Source of the DNA: Utricularia gibba
Taxonomy: Eukaryota; Streptophyta; Magnoliopsida; Lamiales; Lentibulariaceae
Length of the DNA stretch: 64,000 nucleotides
Direction: 5' to 3'
NCBI GenBank assembly: GCA_002189035.1
Contig: NEEC01000016.1
Location: forward strand, 1,116,001-1,180,000
Below the pieces are notes generated by a model. The model made no database searches. It was not told where the DNA came from and saw only the letters and a program-made list of their open reading frames with translations. The translations under genes were made by a program, and so were the position numbers. This document shows positions 50,614 through 64,000 of this stretch, piece by piece (the first letter of the stretch is position 1; every line of letters begins with the position of its first letter).

Positions 50614-50725
50614 ATGGGAAGAGATGAGGAGGCTTGACAACCTGAGTGCACGCCAGGTAATGTCTTTTCAAACAGAAGACAAGGCTTGACCTCAGCAAGA
50701 AGGGTAAGGAGCTCTCAGTTCCTGG
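50614..50725 (+). pseudogene. Degenerate SVP-type MADS-box exon 1 fragment (P1)
   Basis: From ggcttgacaacctgagtgca the reading [10 protein letters not shown] aligns with the MADS N-helix of the intact copies ([12 protein letters not shown]). An internal deletion, a frame change and a TGA then break it. 'aagaagggtaaggagctctc' again matches the KKAKELS codons. No usable MADS domain remains. Confidence 0.8.
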
Positions 50726-51284
50726 CGAATCTGGAAGCTCTCTCATTTCTCTACGTTCAGGTTCTCTGCTCCTTGCTTCTTTGTTGTTTCAACGGGAAAC
50801 CCATCTTAGATCTAATCTGATTCTCCAAGCAATGAAAACTTCATTTCTCCATCTGAGTTCTGCTTTTGAAAAGGAGGAGGGGGGTTTTCTTTTTGACACA
50901 AACAACGCTTACGACCGTACAGCCATTCCTCTGGGGAGTGTGCCTCCCCCGCTCCCGCTGTGTAAAGTGGTCTCCTTAGCCTGCTACATATCCAGACTAT
51001 GCTTCGCGCAGTGGCAACCATTGATGCGTCCGTACATCCCTTACGTGTGCTCTCAACGGTGGCAATGGACAGACTTCCTCACTCCGGTCCGGTCCGGGCC
51101 GTTTCGGTCTGGTTAAAAGGAAAAACTGATTAACAAAAAAAACCTATTTTAAAATCAGGTATTGTTTATTTTAAACTGAAGTTAGTTAGGATTCTTTTTT
51201 TCTTCCTGTCTGAAAAACGGCTTCCGCTTTTAGCAACCTCCTTCTTGTTTCATTTCAATCAGTGCAGTCTTTTTTCAAGCATTT

Positions 51285-51438
51285 TTGACAACACAGGAAA
51301 TTTCAGCGCTCGGCAGGCAGCTTTTTCAAAGAGAAGAAAAGGGCTTATCTGGGAAGCTAAGGAGGTCTCGGTCGTGCGGTACCCAGAAACTGCTCTCGTA
51401 AGCGCACGGGGAATGCTCTTACATTTCTCCAGCTCCAG
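51285..51438 (+). pseudogene. Degenerate SVP-type MADS-box exon 1 fragment (P2)
   Basis: An open frame reading [20 protein letters not shown], then EVSVV and HFSSSR, ends at an AG|GT donor, collinear with exon 1 of the intact MADS genes. The ATG and first MADS residues are replaced. The conserved [18 protein letters not shown] segment is scrambled (RYPETALVSARGMLL). No downstream exons were recognised. A relic. Confidence 0.8.
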
Positions 51439-52860
51439 GTTCTATCCTTTTCTTTAATCTGAGCTCGGTTTGCTGTTTTTTTATGCAAATGTTGACTTCA
51501 CATCACTGTGATAAAAGGGTTTTGTGGCAAGAATCTTGGACCATCATATGAAGATGTTATTTTCTCCTCACCCCTTTTGGGAAGAAATTTTAGGGATCTG
51601 AGAGTGTAGCAAATGTTCATCTGTTCCGTATAGTCGCTTCCTAGAACTAATCAGTAATTGATATTTCTGGGATTGGAGGTTTAATCAATCAAATGATTTC
51701 GTTGCTTATGCAATGGCTGCCTAATTAATCCCACCATGTTCCTTGATTACACTTGAATGCAAGCATCCACGAATTGCTGTTTACAGTAGCTTGTAACTCG
51801 TTGATGGCATTACTAAAGACTAGAAGATAAGCTACGTTGTAATGATATGATTAGAGCATAATGATGAAAAGTGGTGTCTTAATCTTAGTTTGTTTTTATC
51901 GAATCAGGCAGTACTTCGAGTAAGCTAAACTCGAGCATCTTGGATTCCTTTTTCAGAAGTCCATGCTGAAAAACTCGACCGGGCAATTACTTAGAAGGAC
52001 ATTTTGTGCTACAGCCCTTCATATCTGATAGAAAAGGATCCCATGATCCTGAACCGATCTTACCTGGGATCGCAAATCCCATGTTTGTCTATGAAGAGAG
52101 GATATGTTTTTTGTCTGAAGGATGAATGGTATGATCCTCAGAGGTATAACATGCAGTCCAAGCGCCCCAAGAAGATGGGGTCTGCTAGAAAATCCTGATT
52201 AAAGTTAGCATTATCCCAGCTTCACGTACACTGGTTGTACTCATACCCAACTTGAGCTTGAGTTAGTAGCAGCAGCATCACCATGTGCCCAAGAACGAGG
52301 AGTGGCGGCTGTTTGAAACCAGTGGACTGCCCACATCAAGTGCAGAAGTGGTGGTAGGGATGATGCATCAATGTGGTATACCTACTATCAATGAAAAAAA
52401 CAACACTCTTATTACAGTTTACAAATGTGCATGTGGTTTGTCCTGATAAACCATAGAAACATAGTGGCCGAATTCAAGGACCCTGATAGCTGTTAAATTG
52501 TAGAATGCAGAATGCCTGCACAATAAACAACAGCCTATTTTCTAAAGCTTGTTCTTCATCATTACTGTTTTGAATGACCAAAATGGTTTCTTAATCAATG
52601 AGATGCATGTCGGTGCACGGGAAATCGGGATAAAATTGGTCCAAATCGGGTAAAGCGTTGGTTAACTTGGTAACGAATGAATCGTTTTTAGATATCTGTG
52701 GAATCACACGGATGTGATCCATGGACGACAGCAGCCTGGACCACTGACAAAGCCTCTTTCTTTTCGTCTATTCTTCTCATTTTAGTTCATTTCAGCGAAA
52801 CCCCAGGTCAAATATTCGAACCCTTCTCTTCCTGTGGCTGAATTCTCTCAGTCCGTAAAA
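51439..52860. other. Spacer within MADS array
   Basis: No gene or clear MADS exon is recognised. The last 120 bp are the leader of the first intact MADS copy. Confidence 0.5.
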
Positions 52861-54408
52861 ATGGTGAAGGAGAGGATCAAGATCAAGAGAATTGAAAACC
52901 TGAGCGCCCGGCAGGTGACTTTTTCTAAGAGAAGAAAAGGGCTTATCAAGAAAGCCAAGGAGCTGTCTGTTCTCTGCGATGCCGAAGTTGCCCTCATAAT
53001 CTTCTCCTCCACTGGGAAGCTCTTTGAGTTCTCCAGCTCCAGGTGAGTCCAGTTTCTTTTAGTGTGTGCGTGCGGGTTGCTTCTTACTTGGATAAATCGG
53101 GGGAACACCAGATCCGTAACAGAAAATAGGGGTTCACGATCTGGAGATTCCTCTTTCTTACATGACCTTGTTTTTCTTTCAAAGATTGTTTCTGGGGATA
53201 TTTGAATCTAGTTGATGTTCATTAGTTCTACGCAGTCATTTCGGTTGTAGCAAGAAATTGGCATCTGTAGAGGATTTATGGTATTTTCTGCGAATAACGA
53301 ACCTAAGTTTCCAGTCTCAAAACATCTTAGAAACTAGAAGGAAATAGAAATACAAGGGAAGTCGAATGCAAGACAGAAGTTCTGCAAACACTACAGTAAT
53401 TAAGCTAAGATGGTTGTTGATTGGGATGTGGTAAAAATCTGACAATTGTGAAGTTCAACTTCCCTGTTAGATTGATTACTTGCTGTCGGCTACCTCTATG
53501 CATTGCTTTGTTATTACCATTAAGTCAAGCTAAACTCATGTTTGTCTTTTTTTGATGGCTGTGAAGCATGGATAGTATACTTGAAAGGTTTAATCTGGTG
53601 TCCAAGAGTCATGAGACGCAGGCACAGCAGCCCTCACTTGATCTTCAGGTACTAGCGAGATTTAGTAGTATGCACTGCCCTTGAACTGCGAATGATATCG
53701 TGGTTATGGCAGCTTCTGGTGAATGGTGATTTCCCCACATTAAGCAAAGAAGTGGCTGAGAAAACCCGTTTACTGAGGTAGTGTGTTTTCACTTGATTTC
53801 TTGAGAAAACTTGGTTATATCGATACCTGAACGGAATTTGAAGGCGAATGCGAGGCGAAGATCTCCAGGGACTGAGTCTCCAAGAGCTGCAATCTTTGCA
53901 GAAGTCACTAGCAATAGGATTGGATCGTGTCATGGCCAAGAAGGTAGTTGCAATGCATCCATGAAAGAAAAACCCTTGAGAGAATCAAGGCTGCCCTTTT
54001 GATTCTCATGGTCTTAACTTTTTCACAGAATGAGAAGATCGCTAAACAAACAATTGAATTGCGAGAGAAGGTACATTCCTCATGCTTCACTGGCGCATTT
54101 CTCATTCTTTGTCCAACACTGGTACCCGAATGTGCAGATATTGCAGCTCTCAAAGGAGAATGCCCTTCTCAGACAAGAGGTATATGTTGCAAGTTGCAAC
54201 AACGTGTGTTCCTCCAAGACAGAGCAGTAACCCACCTTCAAGCAACAAGTATTCTTCTTACCTCCACAACTCTCTTATTCAGGTGGAGGATGTGTCAAGC
54301 AGCAGCCAGAAGATGTGCACCGCAAGCTCAGAAACTATACTCTACGACGACGTCCCATCATCATCGTTTTCTAAGAGCTCGTCGGACACTTCTCTCACAC
54401 TGGGGTGA
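52861..54408 (+). CDS. SVP/StMADS11-clade MADS-box factor, copy A
   Basis: Type II (MIKC) MADS transcription factor; SVP/AGL24/JOINTLESS relatives control flowering time, dormancy and inflorescence identity. Seven exons: 52861-53042, 53567-53648, 53713-53777, 53844-53943, 54029-54070, 54138-54179 and 54283-54408. Exon sizes of 182, 82, 65, 100, 42 and 42 are typical of MIKC genes; 212 aa. The MADS domain begins [20 protein letters not shown] and contains [20 protein letters not shown]. The K domain reads [36 protein letters not shown] and [14 protein letters not shown]. The C-terminal motif is [10 protein letters not shown], the SVP-clade signature. The stop follows directly, but GG|GTGAGT could be a donor to an exon at 54552-54603 that would give a different ending. 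Start: the second in-frame ATG, at the MADS domain. Confidence 0.92.
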
Positions 54409-56391
54409 GTGGTCTTCTTCATTCCTGCAATTGCAGCTAGTCACCTTTTCCAGGAGCAGAACTTCTTCCGCAGCAACTCCTACTTTGTGAATCGTACCAG
54501 TTCCTCTTTGTACTCAACTTCACCAGGTGTTGCGCTTGTGTTTCGTTGCAGTGCCGCCTGCATCGTAGATGAAACCAGCCGAGGTACCGGTGCTTCATGG
54601 TGATGCGTGTGCATGCCACAGTTTGGAATCATTTCCACAGCATTTCCCTTGTTTGTGTTATGTTCAAACCTAATTCTAATTCATAAAAAAATCATCTTTG
54701 GGATAGTCTTTTAAACATGTGAATGCTTCTATAAAAAAATTTAATAAATATTTTTATTATTAAATATGATTGGTTTATATTATAAAAATATGATTTTTGT
54801 TAAGAAAGACTGTACATCTGAAGCGTTTTTTTATTTGTAGACTTATAATTTCTAGTTTATTAAAAATATGTTTTAAAATATTTTTTGAGAAGTAAACATA
54901 TTGTCCATCATTCAATACCCATAGTTTACTTGTATAATATTATTTCGTTTTAGATATATAATTTTTAAAGGTAATCTATTTATATAACCACATTCTGTCT
55001 TCGTCTCCTAATATATATGAGATAAAAAAAAAAGTATTATGGGAGAGAGGAGGGAGAGCTCAATTTTTTTAATATATTTTCCACATAAATTTTCAAAAAA
55101 TGAGAATTTAAAATAAATTTATGTTTTATAAATGTAAAAAGGGATTACATAATAATAAATATGCTACGTTGTAAAATGATAAATCAATTTGTAATAATAT
55201 AGAAATAACAATAAAAATTTAAAACTCTAATTTCTTGAAATTCTAAAAAAAATTTACAGAAATGAATTTAAATAAATAAAAATAAGATCATTGAATAAAA
55301 AATTATTAGAATGAGAACTAAAGTAAACTTCCATATTCTTGTATGAAAAATTTTATTCAAAAAAAAAGAATGTAAAATCGTGAGAGTTGAGTACCGTACT
55401 TGAAGAGGTTAATATACTTCAAGGAGATGATGTCTATTTGATATTAAAGTCAAACCGGAATCCTTAATTGATGGTGGGATAAGGTTCAATGAGGATACTA
55501 AATTTTCAAGGTAAGTGAAATAGACCTAGTTCAAGGAATAATATAAGTATATTAGATGAATTCTATATCAGTTATGAATGAGATAGAAAAACATTTTTTT
55601 TATAAAGTCATTCTCTAATTTTATATGATATATTTTCTCTGAAAAATAAAATAAAATCATAAAATTTGAATACTCAAAACAAATAATATTATACAATAAT
55701 AGTATGGGTCATAAAAGATCAAATGAGCAAAATCTTTGATTGACATTCATGTGTTATTTTTTAGAATAATAATTTCATATTTTTTTAAAAAATGAACAAT
55801 AATGTTTTTTCAGAATTATTAATTTTTTATTTAAAAATAAAATGTGGTAGCATTAATCAGTTCCAAGGGCTAGAGAGTGGGGCGGGCATCTTTTAATAAA
55901 TGTTGGTTCACTTTCTCTCCTCTGTCAGAGTCCATGGTTTTTGTTTCCTGCCAAAAAAACCAGAAGAGTCCATGGTTTTGGTTTTTTTTTTTTTTTTTCT
56001 TGTTCTCTCTTTCCGACGGCTCCTATTTTTAGAAGTCGACGTGCTACCCACCGGCTGTCACGTGAAGACCCGACCGGCTTCCCTTTCCTCAGCGTTCTGG
56101 AATAATTTGTTCGGAGTGGAAAATGGCAAAAAAAATCAGATGAACCCTTTGCAGGTTTTATGTGGAATGGAATGAAAAATGCTGAGGAGGAAACTCTCGC
56201 TCAAAATGTTTTTTTTTGCGATAGACAAGTAATGCACTACTCGGAATTCTCAACAGAAGCTCCACAAATCTAGGAGCAGAGGGAGAAGGAATCTTGAAAG
56301 AGTAGCCATCTGTTGGAGGATGTGGAGAAGTTTGTCGTCTCATTTTCCAACTAACATCATAGATTACAGACATTCAGTTCATTTTCCAGGA
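54409..56391. other. AT-rich spacer within MADS array
   Basis: 54409-54610 may hold an alternative last exon of copy A. 54680-55860 is AT-rich and contains a retroelement relic. 55900-56180 has no clear gene. Confidence 0.5.
55430..55640 (+). mobile_element. Decayed LTR/TRIM-type relic, copy 2
   Basis: tttgatattaaagtcaaacc, then cagttatgaatgagatagaa and cattctctaattttatatga, in the same order as in the 46600-46810 relic. It is diverged and has no coding capacity. Confidence 0.45.
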
Positions 56392-57164
56392 GAAGAAAAG
56401 GGCTCATCAAGAAGGCTAAGGAGCATTCAGTTCTCTGCGATGCCGGAGTTCGCCTGATAGTCTTCTCCTACGCTGGGAAGCTCCGTGAGTTCTCAGGTTC
56501 GTACATTTTTTTCTTGTTTGAAGTGGTTGTTTCTTTCTGAAAAGGGCGTTTTCCAGACATTGGGGCATCAGATCTCTTGGAGAAAAGGATACTTGTGACG
56601 TTGTTGGCCATGATCTGGAAACATTTCTTTGCGTTGCCATATTCATTGTTTCCGTACCACCTAGAAACTAAGTACTGAATGGAAAAAAAAAAGAGAGAGA
56701 AAGAAAGAAAGTATGTCCAAGAATAGCTACCAGGTTTTTTTTTTTTTTTTTTGTTTGAAACAAAATCGTATTCGATTCGCATTTTCATTATCCATTTGAG
56801 AGCAAAATGTGCTTCAGTCAAGGAAGGGTTCATACTTCAAAATGTGCAAAATGTGCATTGCACATTTCTAGAATGAAAAGCATAAACTCTATCTTATGTT
56901 ATGAATGATAGCTTCTGCTTCCTACGATCCTCGCAAACTGTTGTGTTGATAGTAGATGCTTGCTGCATCTTTTGTTGCAACATTCAAGGCATATTTCACA
57001 CTTCTTGCCGTTTGTTATGATCTGAATCCCGTTTTTCCAACGCATACCATGATGCTTCAGTTATGATACACTACAATCATGAAGAATGGAGGATCTACTT
57101 CGGAGGTAGAGCTTGAAGTCTGAATCCTGAGAAGATGGGACGGCAGCCATGGCTTGATCTTGAG
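56392..57164 (+). pseudogene. Degenerate SVP-type MADS gene (P3): exon 1 part and exon 2 relic
   Basis: 56392-56500 reads [20 protein letters not shown] then [17 protein letters not shown]. This is most of a MADS domain, but the first 20 or so residues are missing, substitutions are visible, and the donor is lost. At about 57110-57164 a stretch (aatcctgagaagatgggacg then gcagccatggcttgatcttg) matches exon 2 of copy C, ending at an AG|GTAAGA donor. In-frame stops are present. No K-domain exons were recognised after it. Confidence 0.8.
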
Positions 57165-58393
57165 GTAAGAAGTATGCTGCTTCAGTCATATCCTGCTTCT
57201 TGATGAGGCAGCAACTAAGCTACATGTCTCAAGCTAGTTTTTCACTCTGATGAACTACATGAGAAGGTAAGGAGATGGCTAGGCCTAGGGTTACCCTGCT
57301 GATCACAACTGTGCTTATGCTCATGCATTTCTGTATGCTCGTTTCTTCGAGCTGTCTGTGCTTGATGTCTCGTTCCGGATCCTCAGCTTCCTGGAACAGC
57401 ATGATCTACTAAGATGCGAGGCTGGTGTTGGTGAAGCTTCATGCTACATCTTCCACATTCTTCTCTAGATGTTGGATGTATCAAATGGTAGCTTAAAAAG
57501 GACTACCAGAAGCTGCTAACTAGGTGAAGTTCGATCATCTGAATCTCAGTACATGTTGTAATATTTAATTACAATGGTTTAATTATTAGAAGAGAAAATT
57601 ACGAGGAAATTAATAAATCAAAGACTTGGGTTAGTCTTTGATGGTTGTAATCGAATTTATAATCTTTCATAAGATTTGACTCGATTGAATTATCAAGTCT
57701 ATGATTTATTGATTCTTTTTTTCTTGTTCTTATTCCTTTCAATCTACACGATGGATGGACGCCATCAAGATTCCAAAAGATCATCACACAGCCACTGTCT
57801 CATTCTTCATTTGGAAGGAGTTTCCACTAATGAAGCTAATGTTGTCCTTGGTTGAAGGCACCAAAGGAGCTTCAATATGTCATCCTTAATGTTTGGAAAA
57901 CACACATTCTTGAAATCCTAGCACTTGGAACTTCAATATTTGACATGATCTGATTTTGTTAAAATCGAGTAAATTATATTTTCAAGTAATTTATCGAATA
58001 TTTTAAAAGTTTTTTTTTTTTCTAGAATGAGAAACTTGAACCCTAAATTATGAGGATAGTCATATGGAAACACATCAAAATTTTAAAATTTTCTAAAATA
58101 TATATGTATTTTTTAATTGTAATGAATAAAAAATAAAAAAAGGAGGGGTGGGTGTGGTCCCGCATGTGCACAAAACACTGTCCACTCCATTTGGAGCTCT
58201 CGCTTCTCTGTCTTCCTTTCTACGTGTGTGTTTGCAACTGGATTTATCAAGTCCTATTTTTAGAAACACCTTTTACTTTACAAGAAACCCCACTTCATAG
58301 TTTCGCCTTCTTGCTTCCTGCTGCAGTCATCTCAACCCAGTCTCATCCAAATCCAACGCCACACCCGCCACCGACCGAGACTCAGCTCAAGGT
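57165..58393. other. Spacer within MADS array
   Basis: No recognisable MADS K-domain exons or other genes. The right end is the copy B leader, CT/C-rich from about 58180. Confidence 0.45.
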
Positions 58394-60240
58394 ATGGCTC
58401 GGGAGAAGATCAAGATCAAGAGAATCGACAACCTGAGCGCCCGGCAAGTCACTTTTTCCAAGAGAAGAAAAGGGCTCATCAAGAAGGCTAACGAGCTTGC
58501 TGTTCTCTGCGATGCTGAAGTTGGTCTCATAATCTTCTCCTCCACTGGGAAGCTCTTCGAGTATTCCAGCTCCAGGTACCCTTTTGTATGTGATTTTTAT
58601 CTCTGTGTTAACATTAGATCTTCTGGGGGAGTGTTTGAATCAATCCCAGTGGCATGATCTGAAAGTATTTCTTGTTCTTTGCCTTCCTGCCAAGTTCCAG
58701 TTCGGGATCTGGTACTGAGTCAACGTTTAATGCGTCCGTACACCCCTTTGTAGGTGTTTTCGAACTAGAAGCCATAAAGTTTAACAAGCAGGCATATGTT
58801 TATGTTGCAGAGACCTTTTTCCCATGAACCCAAGTTCCTACATGCATCAAAAAAAGATTTTTTTAAGGGGGGGATTGTGTTCTTTATACAAATATGTTTT
58901 TTCTTTGTGCTGCTTCTTTCATATGGCATCACCAAAGAAAACAATTTTATGATGCAACTTCTGCTATTTGAGCATGCAACCCTTGCTTTGGAATACTTCA
59001 TTGGCTTTAAGAGCTGATGGTGTGGAGAGCCAGGGTTCTAAATACAATTTGAAAATGGTTTTGTCTACCCAATGTAAAACGATCTGCTTCATTTTATAAG
59101 AAATTCTTGTGTGTTCTAATGAAATGATATGTGTTATAGTTCAAGGTGGATCATTTTGCCTTGTATTGAACTTGATTTCTTCCTTGGGGTATATGAGGAA
59201 CTCTATCAATTCCCTTCATCTGCATTAACCATAAAATTTCATGTGTTTTCATCTTGATCATTACTCAAAATCCTAGCAAGTTTCTCTGCATCGAAATCCC
59301 TTTATTGCGTTTTACCAAGAGGAATGCATAGTGAAGCATCATTTTCCCCTACCCTCCATGAAATCCAAGCTGATACACTCTTTCGTTTCGATGCCATAAA
59401 GCATGGACGATATTCTTGAAAGATATCGTTTGCATTGCAAGAATGCTAGCAATCTGGTGCAGCCCTCACTTGATCTTGAGGTACTTGTATATACTCGGTT
59501 CTTGATTTTCGTTTAGTTGCTTCACTAACGAGCTGCGCGGACTTTGCAGCTTGTGGTTGGCAGTGACTTACCAACACTAAGCAAAGAAGTGATAGAGAGA
59601 ACTCGCCAACTCAGGTGCTCTACTCCTTATATTTGTTATCTCAAGCTCTTCTGATACTCATTTACTGATGAAGGCGCATGAGAGGGGAGGATCTACAGGG
59701 ACTGAGTATTGACGAATTGCAATCTATGGAGAAGTCCCTCGGGGCAGGACTGAACCGTGTTTCTGCGAAGAAGGTAGGCGCTAAAGCTCGTACCCTTTGC
59801 AAAATATCATACATTGAGTCATCATCTTGGAATTTCTTGATAGAATGAGAAGATCAAGAAACGGGCTGACGAACTGCAACAGAAGGTTAGCTTCATCATC
59901 TTCTTGCTTCTTGGTACATGGCCTTCCATGGCAGACACAGTCTAGTACTCATATATTGACATGCATGTCGACGTTCAGATAATGCAGTTAGCAGACGAGA
60001 ATGAGCTACTGGCACGAGAGGTAGGTGATGATGAAGCATTCATTCCTTCATGGGCTACCTACTCCTCAAATAAAATCTGCTGCTCAGGTGGAGTATCTAT
60101 CTAATAGAAGCCACCCAGACGGCCCTCCGAGCTCGGAAACTACAGGCTTCGACGATGTACCGTCGTCGGAATCCACCACCTCCATCACAGATCCTATTCT
60201 ATCCAAGAGCTCATCGGATGCATCACTCACACTAGGGTAA
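58394..60240 (+). CDS. SVP/StMADS11-clade MADS-box factor, copy B
   Basis: Same architecture as copy A: exons 58394-58575, 59402-59480, 59550-59614, 59674-59773, 59844-59885, 59979-60020 and 60088-60240; 220 aa. The MADS domain is [20 protein letters not shown], then [20 protein letters not shown] and [10 protein letters not shown] and K regions: [53 protein letters not shown] and [15 protein letters not shown]-terminal [10 protein letters not shown] then TAA. GG|GTAAAC at that point could also splice onward. Intron 1 (826 bp) is the longest of the three copies. Like copies A and C, it has RKGLIKKA and AEV where canonical SVP/AGL24 have RRGLFKKA and ADV. All seven exons are intact, so it is probably functional; target genes are unknown. 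Confidence 0.93.
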
Positions 60241-62116
60241 ACCCCTTTTGTTTTTTCACTGATTTTTCATTTTTCACTACAGACGAGCACAATTCGAGCA
60301 GTGACTGAGTGAAAACTTAACAACATTCAAGGCTGGGTTGCAACGTCCCCGAGCCCGATCGAACTACTTCTTCCAAGGGTTCACTTCTGAGCGAAACGCT
60401 GTCCTGAAAGGGAGTTCTGGTTCTCGGTGGAAGATGCGAGTTACAGAGACCACAAGGTCGCCGGGGTACCTTCAGAGGTGCTTTGTTTCTACGTAGAAGC
60501 TGTTCCTGCTATACTTTGCGCCCTCTTGATTTTTTTTGTGGGATTATTAGAAATTTATGTTTTAAAATCAACCATTCGATTTAATAATTTTTTTTATAAA
60601 TGTAAAAATATTATGGAGTATAAAAATGTAAAATTTAAATAATTACTTTTATTTTGTATAAATCATGAATAAACAGGATAATGAATTGAATTGGAATTGT
60701 CCCATTTAATTATTAAGCGCACAAGTTTTACTGGTGTATATTTATTTTTGTTTTTGAAATTAACAACTTTTTATAATTTTCATATAGGTATAATTTAATT
60801 TAGGTGTTTCAAAATAAAAACATACTACATCTTGGAAACTTATGCACAATTTTATCTTGTTTATAAGAAAATTATCAACATTGTGATTTATTATGTTATT
60901 GATGATGCATTGATAAAATATTTGTTTTTAAAGGTATTAGTTTGTATGATAAATAAGTTAATAACTCTTAAATCAATATTACGAACGAAAATTTAAAAAT
61001 ATAGTAAAATGTGTAATTAAACTTAAAATTGTATCATTATTAGATATTAAAACAACACAACTAATGTCAATGAAAATAAAAAGAACTGTAAATGTCATAT
61101 CGTATATTGCAGTATTGACGATTTGAAATGAAATAAATGAAAAACATTTCAAACAAGTTAATTTTTAAACAAAATTAATATAAAGAGTATAGTTTATGAG
61201 CTATAATAGATATTAAAGAAATCAATATTTTTATAATTAAGTTGATATGAATAAAGAACTAATTTATTGAATGTTCTTTTGAATAGCTGCACTTTTTGAC
61301 GTATTTTTAGTAATTTCCTTATTGGGAGCATTGCTATTTTAATATAGAGGATGACAAAATGGAAGTCACGTGATTCGTTGGATTAATCGAATCAGGACAT
61401 TAAATGACACGTGGCATTAAGCCAGTGGTGCTTACGTTAAAGCTTCCAAATTTGAAAACTATGCTGTTGGTTAAATCTGGACACATTTTTCCAAATCTGC
61501 CCTTTGACGTAATTAGGAAGATAGGTTTTGGTTATGAGCTGGACAATTAAGGCTCTAAAACACTTCTTAATTCTGCTTTTTTACTTTTAAAATTTGTAAA
61601 ATGAATTTAAAAGAATAATGGCTGCTTTTCCCAAACTGCCCTGTCCTTTATTCTTTCCCATCTGGTGTTTGGCTTTATCGTTGTTTGTCTCAAGGGTACT
61701 TTAGTACATACACATTACTGATATAAATACAGTGGCATTCCAGGAAAATTGAAGCTCACTGTTCCTCGCATTCAAACGTCCTTGTCTGTCATCTTGGTCA
61801 GACAAATTTTTCTTCCAAAAATGCCCTCGAGAAATGGAAAAATAAACGGCATGTGGGAAACAATCTGAAATATATATTATATAGATGTATGTCAGAATCT
61901 TTCGCTGGGAGGGCCTTTTGGTCATAAATGTATTTCTCTCACTACCAGCGAGAATGAATTGGGACAGCAATACTGGTTATATTCGGAATCCTCTCTCTTG
62001 GTGTTCGGAAGCCGGCTCCTGTTTTTAGGGATTTTCTTTTATGTGGTCATTTCTGAGCAGTCTTATCTTTTTCAAGGAGATCTTGACCTGTGATCTGAGC
62101 TCTGGGATGCCCAAAA
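60241..62116. other. Spacer between MADS copies B and C, with copy C promoter
   Basis: AT-rich with no gene; 60241-60640 may contain an alternative 3' exon of copy B. TATAAATA at 61722-61729 is a candidate TATA box for copy C, although a distant one (about 390 bp from the ATG). Confidence 0.5.
61722..61729 (+). promoter_or_regulatory. Candidate TATA box upstream of MADS copy C
   Basis: TATAAATA in gatataaatacag, the clearest TATA in the 400 bp before copy C. It would imply a leader of about 350 nt. Confidence 0.35.
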
Positions 62117-63784
62117 ATGGCACGAGAAAAGATCAAGATAAAGAGAATCGACAACTTGAGCGCTCGGCAAGTGACTTTTTCCAAGAGAAGAAAAGGGCTC
62201 ATCAAGAAGGCTAAAGAGCTCTCAGTTCTCTGCGATGCCGAAGTTGGTCTCATAATCTTCTCCTCCACTGGGAAGCTCTTCGAATTCTCCAGCTCCAGGT
62301 ACCCTTTTTCTCTTGCTTCTTCATTTGAAGTCTTTCAAGTGTGTGTTTCTTTTTTTCATCAGATCTTAGGGAGAAAAAGAGGGTTTTGGGGGTCTACACT
62401 TATTTTTCCACCATACAAGTATGTGTTGGGATCTGAGAATTTGTAACATGGTGTCAACGTGCATACACCCACTTTTGAAGAAGCGCAGAGCAATTTGGTT
62501 TGGCTCAATTTGCACCAACGCTGTAGCAGAAACTTGTTCTCTCTCTTTTGGGCGTTCCTTTTTCAGGATCAGTAGATTTAGACCATATTCTCTTCAAATA
62601 GCCATTTTTTTAATAAACTAGGGTAGTGTGTGAATGATACGATGTGTGTGCATTGTGCTTAGAACCTTAAACTCACTTGTAATAAATGACGCCAAGCTTA
62701 GTTTAATTCGATTGTAGTCTGTGTAAACTTATTACCTAAACTGGTTATTTTATCAAGTATTGTTTAACTTAATCAACTTGTGTTGTGAAGTTCAACTCTC
62801 ATACACATGTGAATAGGGCAAACCAAATTCTGTCACTTGCGTTGTACATAACAAGCCTTTTCTGTACATTGAGGAGAAGCTAACTTTGGCTCTTTTTTTG
62901 ATGGTGAGAAGCATGGATGCCATGCTTCAGAGGTACAGTCTGCAGTGCATTCATAATCCTGATAAGCTGGGGCAGCCATCGCTTGATCTTGAGGTACTAC
63001 CATGAAGTGTTATTGTTCATAACCTGACCTTTTGTATGTTTTTTCTGCGTCACAACGTTGGTTGCATTGCAGCTCGTAGTGAACAACAAGTTCCCCACGT
63101 TAAGCAAGGAAGTGATGGAGAAGAACCGGCAACTGAGGTAGGCTTCATGGACTTGTCGTATAACCCCCAGCTTCTTTGATCGTGATAAGGGAAATGTGAT
63201 GCCAAAAACAGGCAAATGAGAGGGGAGGATCTCGTGGGTCTGAGCATTGGCGAATTGGAGGCTATGGAGAAATCTCTGGAAACCGGATTGAACCGTGTCA
63301 CTGCGTTGAAGGTAGGCACAATGCAAGCACCTAGGGAAGCATCAGAGAACGAAAACTAATACTCTTATCGTACTGTTTTGCAGAATGAAAGGTTCATGAA
63401 GGAGACCAATGAACTACAGGACAAGGTCATGACTCTTAACCTCGAGTATTGCTCGGTTTCGAAAGAATGACGCCTTTCTCGACGAATATGCAGGTGATGC
63501 GCCTAACCAAAGCGAACGAGCTACTGAGAAAAGAGGTTCAAACTACACAGCTTTTAGTGCATCGCAAGGTAGGTTGGAGGATCGAAATCAGTTCAGTTAG
63601 TTACCTCTTCTTACATGTTCAGGTGACCAACATTGATTATACAAGACACAAGATGAGCGCAAGTTCAGAAGCCATGCCCTACGATGAGATACCCTTATCG
63701 GAATCCCAAGGGAACTCGGCGCGACATCCACAGGATTCCAAGAGCTCATCGGACACCTCTCTTACTCTGGGGTCACTCTTTTAG
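62117..63784 (+). CDS. SVP/StMADS11-clade MADS-box factor, copy C
   Basis: Exons 62117-62298, 62912-62993, 63073-63137, 63212-63311, 63384-63425, 63494-63535 and 63623-63784; 224 aa. All splice borders are GT-AG with conserved phases. MADS domain [20 protein letters not shown], then [20 protein letters not shown] and [85 protein letters not shown] and [14 protein letters not shown]. The C-terminus [16 protein letters not shown] ... [13 protein letters not shown] reads three residues past the LTLG motif, unlike copies A and B. Its MADS exon is closest to copy B. Partners are presumably other MIKC factors; no regulatory target can be read from the sequence. Confidence 0.93.
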
Positions 63785-64000
63785 ACGCTTTTTCTCCTTG
63801 GTAGTGCAAATGTACGCAGCTCGAGTCAAGTGATGATATTTATCAGATGCTCTTTGCTGCAGACTCTCCTGCAATGTGGCGGAATCCAAGAGAGCTCACT
63901 GCGGCGGCGCGCTTTGAAATCATTGTCGTTATGGTTGTAGTTTGGTCCGCGCTACGACTTTCGTTCCAGTGTGTGATGGTTCGTTGCAGAAATGGAGGCC
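63785..64000. other. 3' region of MADS copy C
   Basis: Probably 3' UTR. The last bases (atggttcgttgcagaaatgg) have a possible acceptor, but no further MADS exon can be judged before the window ends. Confidence 0.4.

Follow-up and report, generated by a model that had tools for sequence, protein, structure and literature searches.

A tandem array of SVP-type MADS-box genes in Utricularia gibba, probably one of two homeologous arrays partitioned by birth and death

In Arabidopsis, MAF2-5 form a tandem cluster of flowering-repressor MADS-box genes in the FLC clade that evolves by birth and death. In Rosaceae, tandem expansion in the SVP clade is tied to bud dormancy. Within the SVP2 (AGL24) clade, the DAM genes form a group of the Amygdaloideae; they are syntenic with AtAGL24 and carry a DAM-specific 15-residue motif after the K-box, given as a logo figure (PMC9533583). 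For the bladderwort Utricularia gibba, a species-specific SVP expansion with five members, orthogroup ORTHOMCL11149, was described in 2015 (PMC4350169), in agreement with the lineage specificity that the initial annotation of our locus had proposed. This orthogroup almost certainly includes the genes analyzed here; in the part of that description available to us, tandem arrays, relics, homeology and promoters are not described. We add two homeologous tandem arrays, their relics, a conserved pairing between them, an eighth exon, the loss of the LxLxL motif in one gene and a promoter CArG box. Our partial coverage of the literature turned up no paper describing the homeologous arrays, relics, pairing, exon 8 or CArG box. 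The carnivorous herb examined here, with its small genome, expanded these genes separately; its two homeologous arrays, with datable gains and losses, let us ask whether tandem SVP growth serves dormancy, flowering time or neither. Given that this genome is otherwise heavily stripped, it is informative in itself that old, constrained tandem copies have been retained.

The window is the whole stretch of DNA that was analyzed, 64,000 nucleotides (C402:1116001-1180000) of a 100.09 Mb assembly of 516 contigs. Between 50.6 and 63.9 kb it contains six SVP-type MIKC MADS-box units arranged head to tail on the plus strand: the intact genes A, B and C and the relics P1, P2 and P3 (Table 1). The initial annotation had read the locus in the same way, and gene models, tblastn and blastn confirm it. 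Its extent for the array, 50614-63784, was correct in location and too short at the right end; C runs to 63917 because an eighth exon had been missed. The exon sizes it gave are exact for exons 1-6, which measure 182, 82 (79 in B), 65, 100, 42 and 42 nt. We rejected exon 7 as the last exon: its frame hits a stop or leaves homology just past a GT donor within the 'SLTLG' codons, and a homologous exon follows in each intact gene. The same split between exons 7 and 8 is present in S1, S3 and S4 of a second array (see below) and in a singleton gene on contig C413.

All three intact genes encode SRF-TF and K-box domains (Pfam). Once spliced, the C-terminus reads SLTLGL in B and C and SLTLGA in A, which has thus lost the LxLxL motif. 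The motif SDTSLxLGL, split by the last intron, is found in B, C, S1, S3, S4 and the C413 gene; the exceptions to the C-terminal LxLxL motif are A (LTLGA) and S5, which is without it. P1 is the weakest relic (tblastn E 0.03, blastn 2e-10), and K-box exons were not found for P2 or P3. Extending the search to the right of C gave zero SVP matches in the next 10 kb, so a further unit there was rejected and the array ends with C.

Table 1. Positions of array features in the window, of the second array on contig C505, and of the segments shared by their flanks. Plain numbers are window positions.
Feature	Position	Strand	Details
Relic P1	~50622-50721	+	Decayed MADS exon; blastn identity 71-73% across 100 nt with A, B, C, S1, S3
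Relic P2	51299-51436	+	MADS exon without start, 6-nt deletion; tblastn 6e-10
Gene A	52861-54603	+	Intact SVP-type MIKC, 228 aa; splice-consistent model, Pfam
Exons of A	52861-53042, 53567-53648, 53713-53777, 53844-53943, 54029-54070, 54138-54179, 54283-54404, 54552-54603	+
CArG box upstream of P3	56023-56032	+	CTATTTTTAG; element and flank same in S2, S4
Relic P3	56379-56501; 57075-57169	+	MADS exon without start; broken exon 2 ('...QPWLDLE'); tblastn 1e-13
CArG box of B	58254-58263	+	CTATTTTTAG, 140 bp before ATG
Gene B	58394-60407	+	Intact SVP-type MIKC, 244 aa; splice-consistent model, Pfam
Exons of B	58394-58575, 59402-59480, 59550-59614, 59674-59773, 59844-59885, 59979-60020, 60088-60236, 60332-60407	+
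CArG-box variant of C	62019-62028	+	CTGTTTTTAG, one mismatch, 98 bp before ATG
Gene C	62117-63917	+	Intact SVP-type MIKC, 238 aa; splice-consistent model, Pfam
Exons of C	62117-62298, 62912-62993, 63073-63137, 63212-63311, 63384-63425, 63494-63535, 63623-63771, 63863-63917	+
Relic Q1	C505		First unit of second array
S1	C505:603659		Intact
S2	C505:607073		Truncated
S3	C505:608672		Intact
S4	C505:611888		Intact
Relic Q2	C505		Between S4 and S5
S5	C505:616874		C-terminally truncated
Collinear flank	36.4-38.1 kb		C505 572.4-576.7 kb
Collinear flank	65.2-66.8 kb		C505 624.5-626.1 kb
Collinear flank	69.6-72.5 kb		C505 638.1-640.8 kb

Among solved structures, the best match of C is the K domain of Arabidopsis SVP (7xgs, 2e-24), followed by SEP3 (2e-8) and AG (2e-4). 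In a tree of 25 proteins, the array genes form one group against other MIKC proteins (94/98) together with four other genes of this genome (C413:752092, C1:7955920, C1:4644199 and C409:1105099) and with AtSVP, AtAGL24 and JOINTLESS; the AtSVP sequence used agrees with PDB 7xgs across the K domain. The combination of MADS and K-box domains, tree placement, SVP as the closest K domain and the C-terminal motif makes the array genes members of the SVP/AGL24 (StMADS11) clade. The initial annotation had assigned them there, and the phylogeny does not split the copies among clades. The array as a single group has a support of only 77/78, and subclade tests do not separate SVP1, SVP2 and SVP3 (p-AU 0.21 for a grouping with AGL24, and above 0.2 for SVP+JOINTLESS and all other groupings).

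Other MADS-box clusters were encountered in the genome. One at C2:1.18 Mb was considered as a third SVP array and rejected, as its four tandem MIKC genes (C2:1183943-1196432) are FLC-like; this cluster means that tandem expansion has affected both repressor clades, SVP and FLC, in the genome. Two small tandem groups with weak MADS matches and long single-exon frames (C1:2063449-2074918 and C411:224272-228383) are probably type I genes. Elsewhere in the assembly, mitochondrial cox1 (C515:183547-185854) is split by an intron with an open endonuclease-like reading frame and contains LLLLCCSALVEVG, with two contiguous cysteines, a change known from Utricularia and from some Genlisea (PMC3141634).

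A genome search with C returned five more close MADS exons on contig C505, where we modeled a second homologous array at 601.6-618.3 kb. Together, the two arrays hold at least six intact genes and one that is C-terminally truncated (S5). Part of the second array is recent: a tandem duplication of ~5 kb copied [S1 S2] to [S3 S4] (C505:603001-614000; 88-89% DNA identity over 3.4 kb; S1/S3 dS 0.11), and the truncation of S2 in exon 3 lies at the junction of this duplication. On both sides, the arrays are flanked by segments that are collinear and on the same strand, after exclusion of apparent matches at window 45.2-45.5 kb (a glycine-rich repeat) and 17.5 kb, and the two blocks are therefore homeologous.

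The CDS tree places A with S1/S3 (99/99) and B with S5 (97/96). Support for joining C to S4 is weak (48/75), so a full one-to-one order is not proven; this weakness is in line with a history in which S4 is P3's partner and C has lost its own. Intron-1 matches, which are independent of the CDS tree, pair A with S1, B with S5, P3 with S2 and P2 with Q1. The upstream region, exon 2 and intron 1 of P3 find their best matches in S2/S4, and the intron-1 remnant of P2 matches Q1. P3 thus probably corresponds to S2/S4 and P2 to Q1, although these matches are short and less certain than A with S1/S3 and B with S5. From the pairing in both the CDS tree and intron 1, the order P2-A-P3-B versus Q1-S1-S2(-S3-S4)-S5 is largely conserved. 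Because members pair across arrays, the tandem cluster is older than the block duplication.

Pairwise, A, B and C show dS of 0.86-1.20 and dN/dS of 0.19-0.24. The cross-array pairs give dS 1.03 and dN/dS 0.10 for A-S1, and dS 0.84 and dN/dS 0.17 for B-S5. The copies are old, and purifying selection has kept them for most of their history. Assembly duplication of A, B and C, a concern raised in the initial annotation, is rejected at this age and constraint. In the flanking homeologous segments dS is mostly 0.35-0.9, with one at 1.5. The values for the array pairs (0.84-1.03) lie somewhat above most of these, which counts against the reading we prefer below; all are Nei-Gojobori estimates near saturation and some flanks are short, so dates cannot be read from them.

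The exact CArG box CTATTTTTAG is found at a distance of 79-142 bp upstream of the start codon in B, S1, S2, S3 and S4, and is absent upstream of A and S5. Its background frequency is two per 128 kb. Within 500 bp upstream of the 27 other MADS loci in the genome the exact element does not occur (0/27), and a one-mismatch form occurs in 4. That an exact 10-mer is kept across lineages at dS ~1 suggests constraint, while shared descent could account for part of the conservation. Auto- or cross-regulation by MADS proteins through this box would be a natural reading. A lone CTATTTTTAG element with an array-promoter-like flank lies beyond S5, at C505 ~618750, and is perhaps a promoter remnant of a lost partner of C. 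A stretch of intron 1 (TGCGTCCGTACA...) is also conserved in B (window ~58730-58774), S5 and relic P1 (~51015-51042; 86% identity to B's intron 1 across 28 nt), and is a possible regulatory element.

The neighbors of the array in the window include a CSI1-like armadillo (ARM) protein (9-15.7 kb) and a RAB11/RABA GTPase (31.8 kb). On Arabidopsis chromosome 2, CSI1 (AT2G22125) and RABA4E (At2g22390) lie near SVP (AT2G22540). The resemblance suggests that the array is the SVP-side locus; as CSI1-like and RABA proteins both belong to large families, this microsynteny is suggestive only. An O-FucT gene (C413:755853-757330) is located ~2 kb behind the single-copy SVP-like gene at C413:752092, and AtAGL24 (At4g24540) presumably also adjoins an O-fucosyltransferase gene. 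This arrangement suggests that the AGL24-like locus of the genome is on C413 and not in the window.

We favor the interpretation, with a probability of roughly 0.7, that the window holds one of two homeologous SVP-type floral-repressor arrays that birth and death has partitioned in U. gibba. Tandem duplication would have turned an ancestral SVP locus into a row of at least four genes, and the chromosome block would then have been duplicated, most likely in a bladderwort whole-genome duplication. Separate decay and regrowth of the two arrays would have followed: on the window side P3 and P2 would have died and C survived, and on the C505 side the [S1 S2] pair would have been duplicated again to [S3 S4]. 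Tandem birth and death had been proposed in the initial annotation and is supported here. From homology, we infer that the copies are expressed and that their products dimerize via the MADS and K domains. The dimers would bind CArG boxes in the promoters of floral integrators, their targets, and in their own promoters; the resulting repression would delay flowering in vegetative shoots. A flowering-time role for the array genes is plausible on these grounds. What counts against this interpretation is the low to null expression in flowers given for the SVP orthogroup of U. gibba in the available part of the 2015 report (PMC4350169). The weak pairing of C with S4 and the lack of both the LxLxL motif and the CArG box in A and S5 also weigh against it.

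Such expression would be expected if the arrays were decaying clusters near loss, whose intact copies were largely redundant or unexpressed and had left the SVP/JOINTLESS function to the singletons on C413 and C1. Five relics and the truncated S2 and S5 across the two arrays, and the presence of intact singletons in the genome, point the same way. However, dN/dS of 0.10-0.24 at dS ~1 indicates selection on A, B, C, S1 and S4 for most of their history, and we regard imminent loss as improbable. Even less probable is a scenario in which each homeologous block began with one SVP gene and built up its tandem array independently. Tandem growth within a lineage is real, as S1-S4 illustrate, but monophyly is rejected for either array by the AU test (p 1e-4 and 8e-5), and gene conversion would need to mimic, in introns as well as exons, the cross-array pairing of A with S1/S3 and B with S5. 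An independent origin of the two arrays is thus rejected by the CDS tree and AU test.

The initial annotation had drawn a parallel to the Prunus DAM genes. If the window were a DAM-type locus, equivalent to Prunus DAM by function or descent, it would control dormancy such as turion formation or growth arrest. The broad clade is the same, and tandem expansion with diverged copies is seen in Prunus as well (PMC9533583). The parallel is supported as an analogy of tandem birth and death, but not beyond: DAM genes are defined as an Amygdaloideae (Rosaceae) group within SVP2/AGL24, and the host here is a bladderwort of the Lentibulariaceae; the O-FucT neighbor is at C413, and the CSI1-like and RAB11/RABA neighbors in the window resemble those of AtSVP. 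Since the array looks SVP-side, DAM would be a parallel and not a relative. We consider a DAM-type locus the least probable of these readings, and a dormancy role of the array is unsupported. Returning to the homeologous repressor arrays that we favor, it is tempting to go further and envision a self-regulated SVP system, in which the copies are wired to SVP-type proteins via the proximal CArG box and the subgenomes keep different members (C versus S4). With the tandem FLC-like cluster, this would give a rootless aquatic plant an unusually large repressor set to tune flowering against vegetative growth. We offer this extension as a speculation of rather low probability.

The window cluster is a real and fairly ordinary lineage-specific expansion. 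It resembles Arabidopsis SVP (At2g22540) in domain layout, K-domain sequence and similar neighbors (CSI1 and a RABA GTPase), and the C-terminal SDTSL(R/T)LGL motif of Arabidopsis SVP is also found in most array copies. It differs in that SVP is single-copy in Arabidopsis, in that the array K domain is only moderately similar, and in the long stem branch of the array in the tree. Like MAF2-5, it is a tandem MADS-box cluster undergoing birth and death, probably of flowering repressors; unlike them, it belongs to the SVP clade and not to the FLC clade. With the DAM loci of Prunus and Maleae, which in Maleae were multiplied further by whole-genome duplication (PMC9533583), it shares a tandem array of SVP-like MIKC genes. 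In contrast to these loci, the U. gibba array is in another plant lineage, and probably in another SVP subclade and at another syntenic locus.
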